A stretch of 64,000 nt of DNA from Pyropia haitanensis (Eukaryota; Rhodophyta; Bangiophyceae; Bangiales; Bangiaceae). The position numbers were made by a program, and so were the translations under genes. The notes beneath the pieces are model-generated. The model was not told the DNA's origin. It saw only the letters and a program-made list of their open reading frames with translations, and did no database searches. Position 1 is the first letter of the stretch, and the number at the start of each line of letters is the position of its first letter. Positions 18,705-34,322 of this stretch are shown here, one piece after another. Where the stretch lies: NCBI GenBank assembly GCA_008729055.1, contig SDUX01000003.1, forward strand, positions 682,001 to 746,000, given 5' to 3'.

Positions 18705-20560
18705 AGCCGGGAGGGGCGGGGGGGGGGGGGGGGGAGGTGGTTCCGGTGGGGGGGGAGGGGTGGGGGGGGACCCACAAGGTGGTGGTGGTGGTGGCGGTGG
18801 TGGTGGCGGCGGCGGCGGCAGCGGCGACGGCGGGGGCGGGCGACCAGCGTCGGCTGGTGCCGAGGGGGGGGGGGCGCCGGCGGCGGCGGCGGCTCGGCGG
18901 GGATGATGGGGGGGGTGGTGTGCGCGGCGGCGGCGCGGGAGGGGGGGCGCCCGAGCAACCGCTACTTTATTCCACGAGGTGCGTTGGCCGGTGGTGGACG
19001 GGGGATGGGGGGGGGGGGGGCGGCGGTGGGGCGGGAGGCTGCGGGCGTTTCGACTGGGGGGGCGGTGTGGGAGGTGGGCGGCGGAGGGGGATGGGGGCGG
19101 GCCGGCCGCGCGGTGGGGCCCTCGCCCGCTGGAGGTGGCGTGCGGTTTGTCGGCGGGCCGCGACGTCCGCGGGCGTGACGCGCGCGCCCACGCGGGTGAG
19201 GGGGGTGCCGTTGGCCTGGCGGCCTGGGTCCCGGTGGGCGCCTCGTGTGTGTGGACCCGTGTATGGGGCTGACGCTGACGCCCGTGTCTGTGATGACCTG
19301 GTTGGTTGGGTGGCCTGTTTTTTGTTTTTTTTTTCTGGGGGTGGGGGGGCGCCGCCGTGCCGTGCTCGGGGGGGGTGCTGGCGGGATGGGGCGGGGACGT
19401 GTCACGGCGCTCCTTTTTGCCGACGGCCCACCCGGGGTGGTTGGCGGTCGCGTTGGCGGCGCGCCCCACAGAGACGACGGCGGTGCCGACGCTCTTCACG
19501 TACACCGTGCCGACCGCGTCGCCGGTGCTGCTGTGTGGGTCGTGGGACGCGTGGACCAGCCGCACGCCCATGCACCGGCACCATGATGTGCATACGGCAC
19601 AGTTTTCGCTCCTGCCGGGGACGTACCATTACAAGTGCGTTTTTTTTGGGGGGGGGGGGGGAGGGGGGACGCCGGGGGAGGGCGGCTGCTCTGGGCGGCT
19701 GCTCTGGGCGGCGGCAGGCTGCTTTGGGGCGGCGGCGGGCGTGCGCGTGTGGTCTCTTTGGGTTGCTTTGTGGTGCGCTGGGGCGGCTTCTAGCTGCGCG
19801 TCTGGGGTTGTCGTGTACCCTGGTGTCACGACACGGCGCGGTCTGGGCGATGGCGGCGGCGGCGGCTGCGCGTTTGCATACGACGCCTGTTTTGCAGCAG
19901 AGTCGGGTGTGGCAATGGGGTGTCGCTACTGTTTTGCCTGTGGTTTTCGCGGCCGTCTGACGCACGTCTCTGTGGTGGCCTCCTCTTTGTACCTCTTTCC
20001 GTCCTCCTCCTATTCCCTGTGCTCTCGCCTCGACGCCCGCCCCCCTCTGCAGGTACATTGACGGCGGAAATTGGCGGCACGCGACGGACCAGGCGACGAC
20101 GCTGGACGGCTCGGGCAACCTCAACAACGTCATCACCGTCGAGTCGAGCGCCGTCGAGTTTGACCTGGACCACTCGTCCGACTCGGACACCCCCGCCGGC
20201 GCGTCGGCCGCCGCCGCCGCCACCGCCGCCGTCGCCGGCCGCCACGCGCCACGGCCCGACGGCGCGGGCGGCTCGCCGCTCGCGTCGTACGACTGCGCGC
20301 CGCCCGAGCCGGCCGTCGTCGAGCCGCCCGCGCTGCCGCCGCACCTGCGCACGCCGTCGCTGCGGACGGGCACGAGTACGGGGTGCTCGCGCGCGCCCGG
20401 CGCGACGCGCGTCGACGCGTGCGGGCACGTGCGGCTCAACCACCTGTTTATCGCCGTGCCGTATGATGGGGTGTGCTGTGTGGGCGTCGTGCGGAGGTAC
20501 CAGGCGACCAAGCGGGTGACGTCGCTGGTGTACCTGGCCGAGGCGGAGGTCAATGAATGA
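18530..20560 (+). CDS. AMPK/SNF1 kinase beta subunit, three exons
   Basis: The scaffold and glycogen-sensing subunit of the heterotrimeric energy-sensing kinase. Exons are 18530-18978, 19472-19634 and 20053-20560; introns begin GTGCGT and end CACAG or TGCAG. The N-terminus MGAAAGREAS could be N-myristoylated as in animal beta subunits (inference). A long Gly-rich stretch follows. Across the first splice the sequence reads SNRYFIPR/ETTAVPTLFTYTV into the glycogen-binding CBM48: PVLLCGSWDAWTSRTPM, FSLLPGTYHYK/YIDGGNWRH and NLNNVITV, keeping the conserved Trp and Asn positions. The C-terminal ASC domain has PPHLRTPS, GHVRLNHLFIAVPYDGV and RYQATKRVTSLVYLAEAEV, which normally bind the alpha and gamma subunits. 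The start frame joins the splice frame only if a G run (18864-18874 or 18718-18734) contains an indel; the two later splice junctions are frame-perfect. Confidence 0.93.
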
Positions 20561-21187: not shown

Positions 21188-22461
21188 TCACAGCTCGACG
21201 TGCCCCCCCCCCCCACGAGGCGCGCCGCGGTGTGCCCCCACCACCGCCCCACCCCCCCCCTCCGCCACACCCACCCCCCCCAGTCGACGGACCCCCCCCC
21301 CCCCCCCCACGCGGCCGCCACGCGCGCCACCCCCACCGCCGCGTGCGCGGCGGCCGGGTGCAGCGCGTCGGTGTAGGCGCTGACGCCAACGCCGTCCACG
21401 TACAGGAGGCCACTCGCGGGGTGGGGCGCCCACGCGCCCGCCGCGACCGCCCGACGCGTCGCCGTTACCGTTGCGGTGCCGGCGGCGGTGAGCACCGTCG
21501 CGCCGGGGCGGATGGAGCGGGCGGTGGCGAGGTGCGTGGCGCGCCGGCCGGTGGTCGAGGCGGGGGGGCCAACGACCACCACGTAGTGGCCGCCCGACAG
21601 GGTGAGCGTCAGCGTCGCATTGTCCGCCGGGCGCAGCGCGGTCAGCACCACGTAGGCGGTGGGGGTGGTGGCGTCCTTGTGCGTCCACGCGAGGATGGGT
21701 GACCACACAGAGGGGGGCGCCGCGGCGCCGTCCGCGACGCCCACGTCGGGCGCCAGCGCCGGCCCCGCCGGCGACAGCACCGCGTCCCCCACCGCCAGGC
21801 TATCCACCCGCGCCCGCTCCGTCACGCCGCCGCCCACCCCCCCCCGCCGCACCAGCACCGTCGCGGCCGACGGGAAGCACACGCTGCCATCTTCCCCCCC
21901 CCCGCCGGCTCGGCGGCGCCCTCCCCCGCCCCCGGCGTCGGCGCACCCGCCGACGACGGGTCGTCGGGGGCGCCGACGCCCACGTACCGCAGGCCGAGGA
22001 CCTCCCCCGACGCGTCGCTCGTCACGAGCAGCGTGCCGTCGGCGGCCCAGGCCACGTCGACGGGGCGGATGGGCCACTCGCCGGCGGCCGCCTTGGCCGC
22101 CGCGGCCTGCTCAAAGAGCACCCGGTACGTGCCGCGGACGGCCGGCGGCGCGCCGCCGTCACCGCCGCCGCCACCGCCGCCACCACCGCCGCCACCACCA
22201 CCACCACCGCCGCCACCGCCGGTGAGGGCCGGCAGGTCCACCTCGGCGACCAGCCGGCCCGACGGCACCACCCGGTTCCAACTGCCGTGCGCCGTCACGA
22301 GCACCCCCCCGCCCCCACGCCCATCCCGCGCCGCCGGTGGCGTGTAGCGCCCGTCTGCCGGCGCGTCGGCGGCGAATGCCAGGCCCAGCGGCGCCCAGTG
22401 GGCGGGCAGACACGCGGCGGGCGGCCGGTTGACGCGGCCGCCGACCACGCCGCCGCCACCG

Positions 22462-22492
<31 letters not shown>

Positions 22493-23682
22493 TCGCGCGG
22501 CGGCACCAGCGGGTGGACAGGGGCGTGCCCGCCGCGTCGACCTGCCGGTCATCGCGGAACGTTGGCCACACGTGCTGGGCGCCGACGCCGTCGGCCGACG
22601 CGGCGGGGAGGCGCCACTCGGACCAGCAGACGGGGTACCCAAAAAAGGCGGGCGGAGCGCGTGACCCGTTGGCTGCTGGTGCGGGTGGCGCCGGCGGCGG
22701 CGGCGGCGGCGGCAGCACGTTGACCTCCTCACACGGGTTGTCCTCGGTGACGTCGCCGCCCACGGCCGGGTCGACCAGGTTGTCCGCCCCGTTCTCCACC
22801 CCCACCACCACCCCGGAGCCGGGGTGTACGCCCAGGCCGGCCGTGTTGCGGAGGCCCGCCGCGACGGGCACCAGGTCCGCCCACGCGGCGCCGCCTGGCG
22901 GCACCGCCGCCGCCGCGTCCGCCGCCGCACCCAGCCACAGCGCCCGCACCGCCGACCGCTCCGTCTCGTCCACGCCGTCCACGTTGGCGTCCGAGCCGAC
23001 TTGGACATACAGCCAGGACCCCGCCCCCTCCCCCGACCCCTCCCCCCCCCCCCCCCCCCCCCCCACCGCCCCCACCGCCCCCACCGCCGCCGTCGCCGCC
23101 GCTCTCCCCCCCCCCCGTGGCGCCACCGGCGGCGGCGGCGACGACGACCAAGCTCCGCGTCGAGTGCCCGCCCGTCGGCATCCCCCGCACGACCACCGCC
23201 CGCGCCGTCGCGGGTGCCCGGACCGCCGCCGCGTACTCCCACCGCCACACCGTGTCGGCCGACGAGGCGTACAGGTGGCCGCGGCGGGCGTCGAGGGCGA
23301 CCCCGTGGTTGAGCCCCGCCGCCGTCGCGACCGTCACCCGCCGCACCCCACCGCCGCCGCCGCCGCCGCCGCCGCCACCCGCGTCCGCACCGCCACCCGC
23401 GTCGGCGGCCGCCCACGACGCGACGACGGCGCCGGCGGCGCGGTCCACCCACAGCACCCCGCCGGCGCCGTCGGCGATGAGGCCCCGTGGCACGCCCGCC
23501 GCCGCCGCCCACACGCCGGCGCAGTAGCCGGGCGGGAGCGCCGCGTCCGCCACGGCGGGCAGGTTGCCGCAGGTGGTGGGGCGGGCGGCGGCCGCGGCGG
23601 TGGCCACCGCCGCCGCCGCCGTCACGGCGGTCACCAGCAGTCGAGTCGCGCCGCGACGGCGGGCGTCGCGGCGGGGGGTCAT
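21188..23682 (-). CDS. Secreted sorbosone-dehydrogenase-like propeller fused to Hedgehog Hint (Hog) domain
   Basis: The ATG is at 23682. Residues 1-35 form a signal peptide (RLLVTAVTAAAAVATAAAAA). Next comes a six-bladed propeller of the PQQ glucose/sorbosone dehydrogenase (GSDH) type: GVPRGLIADGAGGVLWVDR, ATAAGLNHGVALDARRGHLY, GGHSTRSLVV, then after a frame change in the C run 23042-23064, WLYVQVGSDANVDGVDETER, GLRNTAGLGVHPGSGVVVG, ENGADNLVD, TAHGSWNRVVPSGRL and RPVDVAWAADGTLLVTSDAS. A second frame change at the C run 21894-21903 leads directly into the Hint fold: catalytic CFPSAATVLV (Cys codon 21877-21879), SLAVGDAVLSP, SPILAWTHKDAT, LTLTLSGGHYVVVV (His 21586-21588), GAWAPHPASGLLYVDGVGVS and AYTDALH. 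In Hog proteins the Cys starts N-S acyl shift and release of the N-terminal part, in animals as a sterol ester. The TxxH motif is SxxH here, and the late SCY Cys is Ala. The exact stop is uncertain because of the C run 21292-21308. Confidence 0.85.
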
Positions 23683-24986: not shown

Positions 24987-27900
24987 TCAGATGCTGACGA
25001 CCACCGGGTCCGCCGCCCCCCCCCGCCCGCCGCGCCTGTACAACGGCAGCGTGTCGGTGCTGTGGTTGTCCGCGTCGCCCTCGCTCGCGTCACTCGAAGA
25101 GGAGGACGCACCGCAACCCCCCCCCCACCTGGCACCCGCCGCAACCACCCCCCCGCCGCCCACCCCACACGCCGGCGCGGTGTCGTCGTCGTCGCCGTCC
25201 TCGTCACCGCCCAGCGCCAGTGCCTTGGCGGCCGCCCCCGTCAGGCCGTTGCGGTTGGCGACCACCGCCGGCAGCGGCACCAGCGGTGGCGGGATGTAGG
25301 CCGCAACCGCCGCGGCCGCGGCGGCGGCCGCCTCGGCCGCAGCCGCCGCGGCGGCCGCCGCGTCCAGCGACGCCGCGTCGCTGCCGCCGGGCGCCGCCCC
25401 CGACGACGCGTCGGCGACGCGGCGGCGCAGCGCCGCGAGCCGCGCCCGCCCCACCGCCGCGCCGTACGCGGCGGCGCCGTGGGTGGCGGTCGCGCGAAAC
25501 CGGCCGCGGAGCCACGACAGGTACGCCGCCGTGCCGACGAGCAGCGCGAGCGACACGACGCCCCCGGGGGTCCACTGGAGGGTCCCATAAAACCCCGCCA
25601 TTGTCGCGTGCTTGACCAGCAGCGCGACGCCTATCCCCGCCGCGGCGCGCGGGAAGAGCACCCCCCCCGCGTCGCCCGGCCCCGCCGTCGCCGCGTACGT
25701 TAGGTTGTACCCCGCCGTCACGTACGAGGCAACGTGGAAGACCGCGCACGCGGGCAGCAACGCGGGGGTGATGGTCGAGTAGACGAGGCCGATGAGGCTG
25801 ACGACCATCGCGCCCGGGTAGAGCGCGTGGTAGTCGGGCGCCGCGTCGGCCGCGTCGGCCGACGCGAGCGCCCGCTCCGTCGGCGGCGCCGTCGCCCGCC
25901 GGACTGCTCGCGCGCCCAGCCGCCACCACGAGGTCAGCTCGGGGGGCGTAAACCACAGCGCGTGCGCGAGGACGTACTGGAGGAAAAACAGGCCCTGCCG
26001 CGCCACCGACGACGCGAGCACCCGCAGCATGTGCGGCGGCTGCGCGAGGAAGACGCGCAGGTTGGACGCGACGCTGCCCGCAAGCAGCATAAACAGGAAC
26101 GAGGTCGTCTGGAACGCAAACAGCCACGTCACGACGCGCGCGTCGACCGACGCGCGCGAGCGCAGCCGCTGGAAGTTGACCGCGAACCGCAGCACCGCCG
26201 GCACACCGCGCACAAACGCCGACAGCAGCAGCGGCGGGAGGAGGCCCTCGACAAACGCCGCCGCCGCGGGCGCCGCCGCCACCACCCGCGACAGCCAGTG
26301 GAGGCCCGGCGCGGACGCGAGCGCCCGCGCGTTGGCCAGCCCCGTGATGGCGGTGAGCGGCGCGACCCAAAAGAGCGTCACGGCCAGGGCGGTGGCGAGC
26401 GACAGCAGCCGCCGCGACAGCACCTGCGACGGCGGCAGGCACAGCTTGGACCAGTGCACCAGGGGGGGGGGGGGGCGGGCACCGCCGTCCACGCCAGGGG
26501 GTGGGGGCTCACCGACAGCTGCGCCGCGATGGACGCGAGCAGGGGGGTGCGGAAGACCACCACCGCCGCCCGTGGGGGGGGGGGGGCGCCGCCGCCGCCG
26601 CCGCCGCCGACGCCGCCGCGCCCGGGTCCGCCGGAGGGGGCCAAACTCAAGGCGGGTGGGGGGGACGCCCCGCGGCTCCGCCGGTGCCGCGGCGTTGGGA
26701 GGAGCGGCAACGCCACGGGCGGCGGTGGCGCGAGCGCCCCGTCCGACTGACCGGCCGCCGTGGCGGCGCCAAGGTCGCACGGCACCCCCCCCACGGGTGA
26801 GGATGCGGCAGCGGCAGCGGCAGCGGCAGCGGCGGCGGCGGCGGCGGCGGCGCCCCCCCCCCCCCCCACCCCGTACGCCGCCTGCGCGTCGACCACCTCT
26901 GCGCGACGCTCCTCCACCTGCCGCCGCCAGTAGGCGACCGCGTCCTCGGCGGGCGCCGGCCCCCAGCCGAGCCACCCCCACACCCCGTCGGTGCGGCGGG
27001 CCACCCACGCCGGCCGTACCACCGGCCGGCGGGCGGGGTGCAGACGGTGGCGGCGGTGACCACCGTCGCCACCGCCACAGCCGCCGCCACCGCCGCCGCA
27101 CCGCCCCCACCAGCGGCCACACCGGCCGCCCCCCCCCCCCCCCCCCGGCCCGGCACGGCGCCCGCCGCGGCGGCGGCGCGCCACTCGGCCTTTTCCGCCG
27201 CGTCCACCGCCGCCCAGTAGCGGCCGACCGCGCGGCGCGGCGCGGCCACGTCGACGGCGGGGACCACCCCAACGACCACGCCCGCGCCGAGGACGGCCTC
27301 CCAGTACGCCGTCACGGCGGCGCCAAAGTCGACGGCGGGACCGCCGTCCCGCACAACGACGCCGCGGCCGCCCCGCCCGTCGCAACCCTCCCCCCGCTCC
27401 GCACCGGCGGCGCCGTCCGCCGCCGCCGTTGCCGCTGACGCCGCCACATTGGCGGGGATGTCGGTGAGGAGCACCGCGAGCGCCTCTGGGGCACCCCGCC
27501 GCGCCGCGTGCGCGACGCGCGCGCGCGCATACGCGGCGGCCTGCCAGTAGAGGGTGCTGCCGACCGCGACCGTGATGGCCACGTCCGCGGCCAGCGCCGC
27601 CCACAGGCGCGCGCGGTCATCCGGCGGCACCGCGCCGAGGCTGTACGCGGCGAGGCCGCCGGCGGCGGCCGACGCGGCCGCCGCCGCGCCGTCGCCGTTG
27701 GGGCCACCCGCCGCCGCCGCGCCCGCGGCGGCGGCCGCGGCGGTGGTCGCGCCCGCGGCGGAGCGGTAGAGCGGCCCGAGGCCGCCGGCGAGGAGGGTCA
27801 GGCCGGCAAAGAGGGCGGCCTGCCAGCGGAGGAAGCGGAGCGCGACGACCACGTCCAGGCCGTGGGTGACCGCCAGCGCGTCGGGGTGGGGGGGGGGGGG

Positions 27901-31734: not shown

Positions 31735-32382
31735 TCAAAAGAAATGAAGAACTGCCCACGTGTGAAGCATTTTAGACAGTTTCTCGATGTCTGCCACCGG
31801 AGTAATCTGTCCACTTTGTGTTCTAGCATGAACAAGTCCTCTTTGTGTTGTCTTTCTTCCGCAGGACGCCGAAAAGTACGTCACAGCGTGTACATCCTGG
31901 AGGATGATTGACGGCTTCCATTCAGATACAGTCCATTCTCCACTCACGAAAGAAATTATTTGAAACAATTGGACGAAGTGCCACTCCTGTGCCGCCTGTC
32001 CAATGATCGAATTTTGAATTGCTCTTGTTGCACTCCTGGCGACCATGGGCCCTTTTTGATCGACCAATTCACCCGGGCCACACATGTAGCACCAACAGGA
32101 AAACGGCCGCTTTGCTCTGGTAGGGCACAACTGGTGGCGGGTCGTGGTGAGGATGCCTCGAGAGGCCGCGCAGCGCCCGTCCCACGATATTGTGCTGCTT
32201 CCCAATGGCCGGCGGGATGACCCCCTTGCTGCCACGGTGGGGCGTTGGCGGCCGTGGCGACGGTGACACCGACCGGTCCCGAAGCGCCACCAGAGGGCAG
32301 CGCCGTGACGAACCCCAGCTCGCCACCCGTGACTTTCGGCAGCCGTTCCGGTCCTCGCGCGCATGTACGGTACCACCACCAT
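31735..32382 (-). other. Unexplained 215-codon reading frame in lower-GC DNA
   Basis: An ATG-initiated frame (32382) in DNA of ordinary composition, where a frame this long is less expected by chance than in the GGC-rich parts. The C-terminal half looks protein-like: RAIQNSIIGQAAQEWHFVQL, FVSGEWTVSEWKPSIILQ and QSGQITPVADIEKLSKMLHT. No family recognised and no neighbouring gene in phase. It could be a transposon remnant or a lineage-specific gene. Confidence 0.25.
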
Positions 32383-32759
32383 TGGACACGCCGTTGAGCC
32401 GGGTCGGGTGCGAGAATAGCCGTGCTCGTGGCCACGATGAGGTAACGAGGGGTCAAAAATCGGCCGTACGCGGCGGCCTCATGCAACCGAGGACCATCCT
32501 CTTGCCGCTCCCTCTCTTCTCAACCGCTTGCCCTTTCCTCGGCCACCCCTGGCCAACCCCAGTCTCCTCCCTTTCTCGTTGCAGAGGGGAAGTCGACGGG
32601 GCGGGCCGTTCCTCTTTCACCGACCACGAACAGGCCAACCAAGGGCGTGCGGAGGGAGGACATGCTGCCAGGAGGGGGGGGGGTGGCGTCGTGCGTCGTA
32701 GCTGTTCCGACTGCGCGGTGCGGGTGTGGGCTTGGGCGTGCCGTGCGCGGCCGCCCGCC

Positions 32760-34322
32760 ATGGCCGCACGGCCCGTGGCAGCTGTGGTGGCGGCGGTCGC
32801 GGCGGTGGCGATAGTCGCGGTGGCGACCCCCCCCCAGCCCGTGGCGGCGGACACGACCTTTTTCGACGCCACCGCCGCTTCGGGCATCCCGACGACGCGG
32901 CAGCTGTCGTACGGGGGCCCCGTCGTGGCGCCGCTCGCCGACAGCCTCGGTCCTTACGACCTGCTCCTCCCCAATCACGACTCGGAGCCCGTGTGGTACT
33001 ACACCAATGACGGGACTGGCACGTTTACCCGCGGCCGCAACGTCCTTCCCAGCATCGAGGACGTCCACGGCCTTGCCGTTGGCGACGCTGACCTCGACGG
33101 CCTCCCAGAGGTGCTCCTCACTCGGGGGGGGGCCAACGGGATGATCCCTGAAGCGGTGGAGTTGCTGTCTCTCCGGCGGGGGAGGTTTTTGAACGTAACC
33201 AACCCCGCGGGTCTGCGCTCGCCACGACGGCGGGGGCGCGCACCCCGCTTTCTCGATATTGACGGCAACGGCACGCCCGACGTGGTAATCATCAACTTCA
33301 AGGGCGCCGCCCCCGGGGGTGACCCCTTTCCGAGCGACGGCACCCTGCAGCTGGCATTTTCCAATGGCATTGGAGGCGTGCACACGCCGGTGGCGAACGC
33401 GGCAGGCCTGGGCAACGTCCCGGTGGAGCGGTTGTTCGTGACAGACCTCGACGGGGACGGCCTCCCCGAGGTCATCATCTTTCCCTTTTTCCGCATCTAC
33501 TCGGCGGTGGGCGGAGGGGAGGTGCGCTTTGTCGACGTGTCGGGCCGGTGGCTGGCTCGCATCGGCAGGGGCCGCGTGTCCCCCGCGTTTGCGGTGGCGG
33601 CGCTTGACTACAACGGCGACGGCCGGACGGACCTGTACGTGGCGCGGGGCACGCAGCCCGACATGCTGCTTCGCAACGACGGGACCGGCCGGTTTGTGGA
33701 TGAGAGCGTCCCGTCGGGCATCCCGCGGGATGGGGACCATCAGGGCGTGACTGTGGGTGACCTTGATAATGACGGCTGGGAGGACATCTTTGTGGTGCGC
33801 CACGAGGCGCCCCGCAAGCCCGACTACATCCTATGGAACAATGGCGGCGACGGCACATTCCGGGTCAGCACCACCCATGGCGCGACGACGACGCCCGAAA
33901 ACGGGCGGGGTGACAACGCGGTCGCGGCGGACCTCGACGGCGACGGGCGGCTGGACCTAGTCGTCGCGAACGGCGACTTTGTCAACAAAAGCCTCGCCGG
34001 CAGCTGGTCCGTCTACCGCAATGGCCGCACGGGGGGGGCGGCGGTCAACCACTTCCTCGCCGTCCGCGTCGGACGGTCGCCGTCGACCAACGCGTGCAAC
34101 AACGGCGCGACCGTGACGCTTGTGGACGCGGACGGGCGGGTGCAGGTGCGGCGCATCGGAGCGAGCGGCTCCTCGTTTAGTGCCAGCCTCCTCAACGTTG
34201 CACACTTTGGGCTGGGCACCACCGACGAGGACGTGCGACTGGTGGTGGTGCAGTGGCCATCTGGCGAGTTGTTCACCGACACGAGCGTGAAGGTAGACCA
34301 GGTGGTGACGTACGGAACTTGA
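32760..34322 (+). CDS. Secreted FG-GAP/VCBS repeat protein with ASPIC/UnbV domain (CRTAC1-like)
   Basis: One exon of 520 residues from the ATG at 32760. Residues 1-30 form a signal peptide (VAAVVAAVAAVAIVAVATPP). The body is a seven-bladed FG-GAP/VCBS beta-propeller with calcium loops visible as DADLDGLPEV, DIDGNGTPDV, DLDGDGLPEV, DYNGDGRTDL, DLDNDGWEDI and DLDGDGRLDL. The C-terminal ASPIC/UnbV domain has NNGATVTLVDADGRVQVRRI, NVAHFGLGTTDEDVRLVVV and WPSGELF. This is the domain order of animal CRTAC1 (cartilage acidic protein) and bacterial UnbV-type proteins, believed to be calcium-binding extracellular proteins. Codon use matches the neighbouring genes, and there is no break or homopolymer problem. 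The substrate or partner is unknown. Confidence 0.92.
   Translation: MAARPVAAVVAAVAAVAIVAVATPPQPVAADTTFFDATAASGIPTTRQLSYGGPVVAPLADSLGPYDLLLPNHDSEPVWYYTNDGTGTFTRGRNVLPSIEDVHGLAVGDADLDGLPEVLLTRGGANGMIPEAVELLSLRRGRFLNVTNPAGLRSPRRRGRAPRFLDIDGNGTPDVVIINFKGAAPGGDPFPSDGTLQLAFSNGIGGVHTPVANAAGLGNVPVERLFVTDLDGDGLPEVIIFPFFRIYSAVGGGEVRFVDVSGRWLARIGRGRVSPAFAVAALDYNGDGRTDLYVARGTQPDMLLRNDGTGRFVDESVPSGIPRDGDHQGVTVGDLDNDGWEDIFVVRHEAPRKPDYILWNNGGDGTFRVSTTHGATTTPENGRGDNAVAADLDGDGRLDLVVANGDFVNKSLAGSWSVYRNGRTGGAAVNHFLAVRVGRSPSTNACNNGATVTLVDADGRVQVRRIGASGSSFSASLLNVAHFGLGTTDEDVRLVVVQWPSGELFTDTSVKVDQVVTYGT

Follow-up and report, generated by a model that had tools for sequence, protein, structure and literature searches.

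Covalent attachment of cholesterol to a protein is known mainly from Hedgehog (Hh). The Hog domain of Drosophila Hh, made up of a Hint part and a sterol-recognition region (structures 1at0 and 6tyy), has red algal counterparts, as the first-pass annotation of the DNA studied here had noted. Hog proteins of the close relatives Porphyra haitanensis and P. yezoensis, known from expressed sequence tags, are reported to have the late Cys (Cys400 in Drosophila Hh) replaced and to share a conserved upstream region, for which the report gave no match elsewhere in 2008 (Burglin, 2008; PMC2362128). Hog genes of Cyanidioschyzon are reported to be under H3K27me3 (PMC5405695), and subtelomeric Kelch-Hint genes of the Cyanidiales join Hint to a red algal propeller annotated as galactose oxidase (PMC9812998). 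The AA12 pyranose dehydrogenases (CcPDH, 6jt5; TrAA12, 6i1t) are six-bladed propellers with residues for pyrroloquinoline quinone (PQQ) and calcium; CcPDH is described as AA12 joined to an AA8 cytochrome and a CBM1 (PMC6881789). Here we analyse a gene that joins an AA12-like propeller to a Hog domain, located in a stretch of 64,000 nucleotides from Pyropia haitanensis (assembly GCA_008729055.1, contig SDUX01000003.1, positions 682,001 to 746,000), hereafter the window. The product shares the propeller and the PQQ and calcium residues with the AA12 enzymes, but its AA12 part is joined to Hog. With Drosophila Hh it has in common the Hint fold, the Cys nucleophile, the TxxH-type His, a base at position 303 and the C-terminal placement of Hog; it differs in having His for Asp303, as in the engineered protein 6tyy, Ser in TxxH, Ala for Cys400, Val instead of Gly before the Cys, and a Gly-rich end. 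As in the Cyanidiales, a red algal propeller is joined to Hint within a multi-copy family, but the propeller is that of a PQQ dehydrogenase and not a Kelch propeller.

The gene lies on the minus strand and runs from 23682, as seen from translation and a coordinate check of the window. Its features are:

23584..23682, minus strand: ATG (23680-23682) and hydrophobic, Ala/Val-rich N-terminal stretch, a likely signal peptide; frame 0; end judged by eye on the translation

23080..23583, minus strand: AA12-like propeller, first part; frame 0; Arg (CcPDH Arg273 place) at 23485-23487, catalytic His (His363 place) at 23164-23166

23042..23064, minus strand: run of 23 G on this strand, with a frame change; an 11-G run at 23106-23116 is the alternative site

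21904..23041, minus strand: AA12-like propeller, remainder; frame 1; Arg-Asn at 22845-22850, calcium ligand Asp at 22782-22784, His at 22398-22400, HGSWN at 22275-22289, Arg at 22065-22067

21894..21903, minus strand: run of 10 G, return to frame 0 ahead of Hint, from a frame check

21307..21882, minus strand: Hint part of the Hog domain (PF01079); Cys at 21877-21879, His (Asp303 place) at 21679-21681, SGGH (TxxH equivalent) at 21586-21597, Ala (late-Cys place) at 21376-21378

21188..21306, minus strand: C-terminal region past Hint, where an adduct-recognition region is expected; frame and end uncertain

The AA12–Hog fusion is real. A protein joined from the three frame segments, with the Gly runs shortened, had as its best match the hypothetical protein MMPV_006688 of Pyropia vietnamensis (P0001; 792 aa), with 70% identity over 99% of the query. 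The precomputed domain listing of P0001 contains both TrAA12 and Hint. Seven proteins were found in all, and the six others list propeller domains and no Hint. The P. haitanensis genome itself holds a paralog (Hint place L057, extended as L094, contig C21) in which the frame runs without a break from propeller to Hint, across a short linker before the Cys. Local identities in pairwise alignments were 59% between the window and L094, 66% between the window and P0001, and 62% between L094 and P0001. The fusion, the signal-like N-terminus (judged by eye in the window) and the Hog-type Hint, all seen by the first-pass annotation, are supported by ortholog and paralog, and the same domain order occurs in another red alga. 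Outside Pyropia, no AA12–Hog protein of Porphyra umbilicalis or P. yezoensis was found, though the database does contain Hog proteins from these two species; this is a weak negative, from the best 7986 candidates by shared words. The frame change at the junction of propeller and Hint would suit two adjacent genes read as one, but P0001 is a single annotated product and L094 a single open frame. Separate genes for propeller and Hint were rejected on these grounds; L094 in particular largely refutes the two-gene explanation, which we regard as highly improbable.

The window copy itself has no single open frame, since the middle of the propeller lies in another frame than the signal-like stretch and Hint. 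The first-pass annotation had given the gene as one span, 21188..23682. Its start codon stands, but 21188 is a stop in the third frame and the Hint frame stays open to 20677, which leaves two possible 3' ends; the region past Hint also holds poly-G runs at 21292-21308, 21252-21260 and 21203-21214. Both frame changes fall inside long poly-G runs, and with the unsettled 3' end this could mean that the window gene is a damaged copy with genuine frame changes, the fusion working in L094 only. However, none of the three segments contains a stop as joined, and the second frame change undoes the first, which puts Hint back in the frame of the signal peptide. A comparison with L094 gave differences at codon positions 1, 2 and 3 of 30, 44 and 66 (180 codons), 57, 68 and 122 (342 codons), and 37, 40 and 70 (193 codons) for the three segments. 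Third positions are the most variable in every segment, which indicates amino-acid constraint in each frame. Poly-G runs are, moreover, prone to sequencing error, which also counts against a damaged copy, and we consider this explanation rather unlikely.

Sequence and fold matches identify the propeller as being of the AA12 kind. Searched against PDB sequences at E ≤ 1, P0001 gave four matches, the Coprinopsis PQQ sugar dehydrogenase 6jt5 at E 4e-19 and the Trichoderma chains 6i1q, 6i1t and 6h7t at about 5e-16. An AlphaFold model of P0001 was built from 16 sequences, with a mean predicted local distance difference test (pLDDT) score of 70.9, a predicted TM-score (pTM) of 0.60 and several propeller loops below 50. 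A Foldseek search with this model placed AA12 entries at ranks 1–4 (target TM-score, TMt, 0.70–0.75; root-mean-square deviation 4.9–6.5), followed by bacterial sugar dehydrogenases. In genome profile searches, neither GSDH (PF07995) nor TrAA12 (PF22807) matched in the window. PF22807 fell below threshold on the first window frame (E 0.0049, 15.7 bits) and was not reported in Pfam scans of the joined protein, P0001 or L094, though the precomputed listing gives TrAA12 for P0001. Each of the two profiles has five places in the genome other than the window, none adjoining a Hint place as judged by distance only. The family name given by the first-pass annotation, GSDH, was rejected because PF07995 misses the window and AA12 fits better.

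The PQQ contacts of CcPDH are reported as Arg273, His363, Arg430, Asn431, His539, His560, Trp563, Asn564 and Arg621 (PMC6881789). With this numbering transferred by counting along the P0001–6jt5 alignment, motifs with all nine residues were found in the window, L094 and P0001. At the calcium site, Asp451 is kept and Ser449, a backbone ligand, is replaced by Gly. Since the PQQ and calcium residues are kept, the window enzyme is predicted to be a PQQ-dependent sugar dehydrogenase.

HHIP binds the signalling part of Hedgehog, not Hog. The first-pass annotation had drawn a parallel between its propeller and that of the window protein, and both are indeed six-bladed and of the same wide fold group. 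The likeness ends at this level: in the Foldseek search HHIP appears earliest at rank 22 (TMt 0.47, about 10% identity) vs 0.70–0.75 for AA12, and any closer kinship was rejected.

The Hint part scores 48.3–50 bits with PF01079, against a curated cut-off of 29.7, so the match is no random one. It had been predicted from the letters at about 21330-21890, and the Cys, the SxxH and the Ala at the late-Cys place were all located as the first-pass annotation claimed. In the Foldseek search with the P0001 model, the Hedgehog Hint structures 6tyy (D46H mutant) and 1at0 came at ranks 7 (TMt 0.83) and 13 (TMt 0.87), ahead of the split intein 8ubs at rank 36. Pfam scans of the three window frames, the joined protein and P0001 gave no Hedge domain, the N-terminal part being the propeller.

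The window Hog is one of many. PF01079 gave 80 matches in the 53-Mb genome, which were merged by hand into 76 places including the window. Of these, 74 exceed the curated cut-off, either singly or together with in-frame neighbours. Residues were counted in an alignment of these 76 places with P0001 (77 rows), P0001 being excluded from the figures. Rows gapped at the Cys, TxxH His and Asp303 columns, many of them partial matches, were left out (9, 4 and 6 rows, respectively). The catalytic Cys is present in 65 of 67 rows with a letter. Of the two exceptions, L093 holds a stop and L061 may be misaligned, having CLLGTSTV just upstream. At two Hog places, L061 and L067, the CFP motif is missing and the frame reads CLLGxSTV. 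The Cys may survive there in a variant motif; alternatively, the domain may be inactive. The TxxH His is found in all 72 rows with a letter, although L090 is out of frame there. The motif most often begins with Ser (43 of the 72), otherwise with Thr (28) or Ala (one), and the late-Cys place holds Thr in 36, Cys in nine and Ala in nine of 69. The Ser and the Ala of the window, which the first-pass annotation thought might alter the chemistry, are thus both common in the family, and the idea that they bring about active-site decay was rejected.

The more telling change was absent from the first-pass annotation. At the Asp303 place, His stands in all 70 rows with a letter, the window included, and the general base Asp is absent. 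A pattern with His at this place fits 74 of 80 database Hog proteins, a consistency check only, because the pattern itself requires His. In a sister Hint (L034) aligned with Drosophila Hedgehog, the His falls on Asp303, and this Hint scores 33.2 bits to 6tyy (D303H mutant), 31.1 to Hedgehog 6td6 and 28.7 to wild-type 1at0. In fly Hedgehog, D303H is reported to keep structure and activity, to raise activity with coprostanol more than 200-fold and to widen sterol use, and D303A to block full cholesterol transfer but not thiol-driven cleavage (PMC9163320). As judged from these alignments, the red algal Hog family carries naturally the base swap that was made in laboratory Hedgehog.

Hog is joined to a range of other proteins. 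The partner scan by Pfam covered 23 loci: all of the 20 long loci except L024 (L033 from an inner Met only), L094 and three upstream pieces. A named domain over cut-off precedes Hog in three of them. L034 (C11:643750-652732) has two imelysin M75 stretches, L095 (C8:2147990-2150150) three nearly identical DOMON stretches in tandem, suggesting recent internal duplication, and L096 a FAS1 domain. Near C11:5624-5625 kb, FAS1 and Hint both lie within one 440-residue open frame. The AA12 partner of the window and L094 was detected by sequence and fold, not by the Pfam scan. From its sequence, L034, a double imelysin resembling EfeO, is possibly a surface iron binder. Relatives of L034 occur in P. 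vietnamensis and Porphyra umbilicalis; the protein of the latter has EfeO 7wgu as its best hit in the PDB. To the eye, L097 resembles DOMON, but Pfam gave no match for it. Many Hog loci of the genome share an uncharacterised N-terminal domain, recognised by eye, which may be the upstream region noted earlier in Porphyra (Burglin, 2008; PMC2362128). Near-identical adjacent Hog pairs, L041/L042 (C10:2990-2994 kb), L049/L050, L052/L053 and L083/L084, represent recent local duplications. Among database Hog proteins, a first set (n = 11) had imelysin in six and Kelch in one. A second set (n = 71) had FAS1 in four and spondin, copper monooxygenase with DOMON, imelysin and PF24784 in one each, and 63 of the 71 lacked any further named domain. 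A JGI protein, P0065, combines a copper type II monooxygenase, a DOMON-like stretch (29.9 bits, below cut-off) and Hog. The AA8 cytochrome of CcPDH is DOMON-like. As the fungal enzyme couples AA12 with this AA8 (PMC6881789), the AA12–Hog and DOMON–Hog proteins may cooperate.

FAS1 proteins of other lineages are often anchored by glycosylphosphatidylinositol (GPI), and a study of genome reduction in red algae (Qiu, 2015) is said to describe the loss of GPI genes. GPI-anchor synthesis is likewise reported as apparently missing in Rhodophyta (PMC3797821). Own-genome profile searches with PF04113, PF05007, PF01650, PF08288 and PF06432 (PIG-T, PIG-M, C13 peptidases, PIG-A and PIG-C) gave no matches, and STT3 was found in the same genome at 336.8 bits. 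The presumed substrate is at hand in red algae: cholesterol, the sterol used by Hedgehog, has been given as the main sterol of 37 species, and it was measured in Pyropia tenera (PMC8234223).

We propose that the gene product is a PQQ- and calcium-dependent AA12 sugar dehydrogenase with a C-terminal Hog domain, which would enter the secretory pathway. The Hog Cys would form a thioester through an N-S acyl shift. This would then be attacked by a hydroxyl, with the His that stands for Asp303 as the activating base, so that the dehydrogenase would leave Hog with an ester at its new C-terminus. A sterol is the likeliest nucleophile, and it would keep the enzyme on the cell surface or within the matrix. 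Many secreted proteins would carry Hog as an exchangeable module, and for some of them it may do the work of a GPI anchor. This reading builds on the observed fusion, the kept active-site residues, the size of the family and some of its partner domains; from these we infer secretion, cleavage, nucleophile, anchoring and GPI substitution, and taken as a whole we hold it to be evenly balanced. More tentatively, and with clearly less confidence, we suggest that Hog serves red algae without GPI anchors as an anchoring device. Dozens of secreted proteins, among them the AA12 dehydrogenase and those with imelysin, FAS1, DOMON, copper monooxygenase, spondin and Kelch domains, would cut themselves and gain cholesterol or another hydroxyl-bearing molecule at a His-based site. 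Hog is proposed as a self-cleaving, probably sterol-attaching module that partly replaces GPI in red algae.

A number of observations speak against this proposal. The late Cys is lost in the window Hog. The residue before the catalytic Cys is Val in the window and Gly in just one of 66 rows with Cys, vs Gly in Hedgehog; a bulky residue there may slow the acyl shift or favour water. The region past Hint is Gly-rich and weakly modelled, with block means of 29–45 after P0001 residue 740. A PDB search with the P0001 sequence at E up to 1 found no Hedgehog chain; such chains emerged only when a sister Hint or the fold model was the query. The disrupted frame of the window copy may reflect an assembly error or a damaged allele. 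FAS1 has 20 matches in 12 open frames of the genome, of which one adjoins Hint and 19 do not; Hog is therefore not the general fate of such proteins, and this point slightly lowered our confidence in Hog as an anchoring device. The PIG-T, PIG-M and PIG-C profiles were silent in control genomes too, so the absence of GPI synthesis rests mainly on the published report (PMC3797821). Cholesterol is also cited as merely 1.3–8.6% of sterols in Porphyra and Palmaria (PMC8234223).

The first three of these points would suit a Hog that cuts by hydrolysis and releases a soluble dehydrogenase with no lipid, for instance to time its activation or secretion. The base is nevertheless retained, as His, in every row with a letter. 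Because Asp303 is reported to be needed for cholesterol transfer and not for thiol cleavage (PMC9163320), a strictly kept base argues for a specific nucleophile, and we judge hydrolysis unlikely. The thioester might instead be attacked by a hydroxyl of cell-wall galactan, which would link the enzyme covalently to wall polysaccharide and not to a membrane sterol. Consistent with this, the partners are partly wall- or matrix-like (FAS1, spondin, DOMON, sugar oxidoreductases), the AA12 copies are Gly-rich past Hint, and the His base reportedly accepts nucleophiles of other geometry (PMC9163320). Yet the P0001 model has helices past Hint (residues 722–737) that, together with a VAxxxLxPxR motif of sister proteins, resemble by eye the start of a sterol-recognition region. 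We also know of no precedent for galactan linkage through Hog, and consider it distinctly unlikely. The interpretation given by the first-pass annotation is partly supported: a self-released, possibly lipid-modified extracellular enzyme remains, from the sequence, the best reading.

Part of this is already in print, namely Hog in Porphyra, the Hog genes of Cyanidioschyzon and the Kelch-Hint fusions. The first-pass annotation knew of no fusion between a GSDH propeller and Hog. For AA12 this holds in that no AA12–Hint fusion turned up by title or abstract start among the open-licence papers listed for Hedgehog or Hint and algae, one listing being swamped by unrelated work. Propeller-Hint fusions as such are not unprecedented, however, given the Kelch-Hint genes of the Cyanidiales (PMC9812998). 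Nor did AA12, imelysin, FAS1 or DOMON as Hog partners, a family-wide His at position 303, or a link between Hog and missing GPI anchors turn up in the open-licence literature searched. The AA12–Hog pairing is thus apparently new.

Around the fusion gene, the window contains an AMPK1_CBM glycogen-binding domain past its 3' end (19306-20058, plus strand, 39.7 bits) and, upstream, a neighbouring gene with the look of an OSCA/TMEM63-type channel (24990-27272, minus strand; RSN1_7TM, 168.6 bits). A protein with FG-GAP repeats and ASPIC/UnbV, a family known mainly from bacteria, is encoded at 32205-34319 on the plus strand.

Should the red algal Hog family attach cholesterol to enzymes and adhesion proteins, sterol anchoring would extend beyond animals as a more general chemistry. 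It would also help to explain how proteins are retained at the surface in a lineage reported to lack GPI anchors. The natural His base would provide Hog domains of possibly broader substrate range for protein labelling. PQQ is made by prokaryotes, and the window gene would place a predicted PQQ enzyme extracellularly in an alga with associated bacteria.

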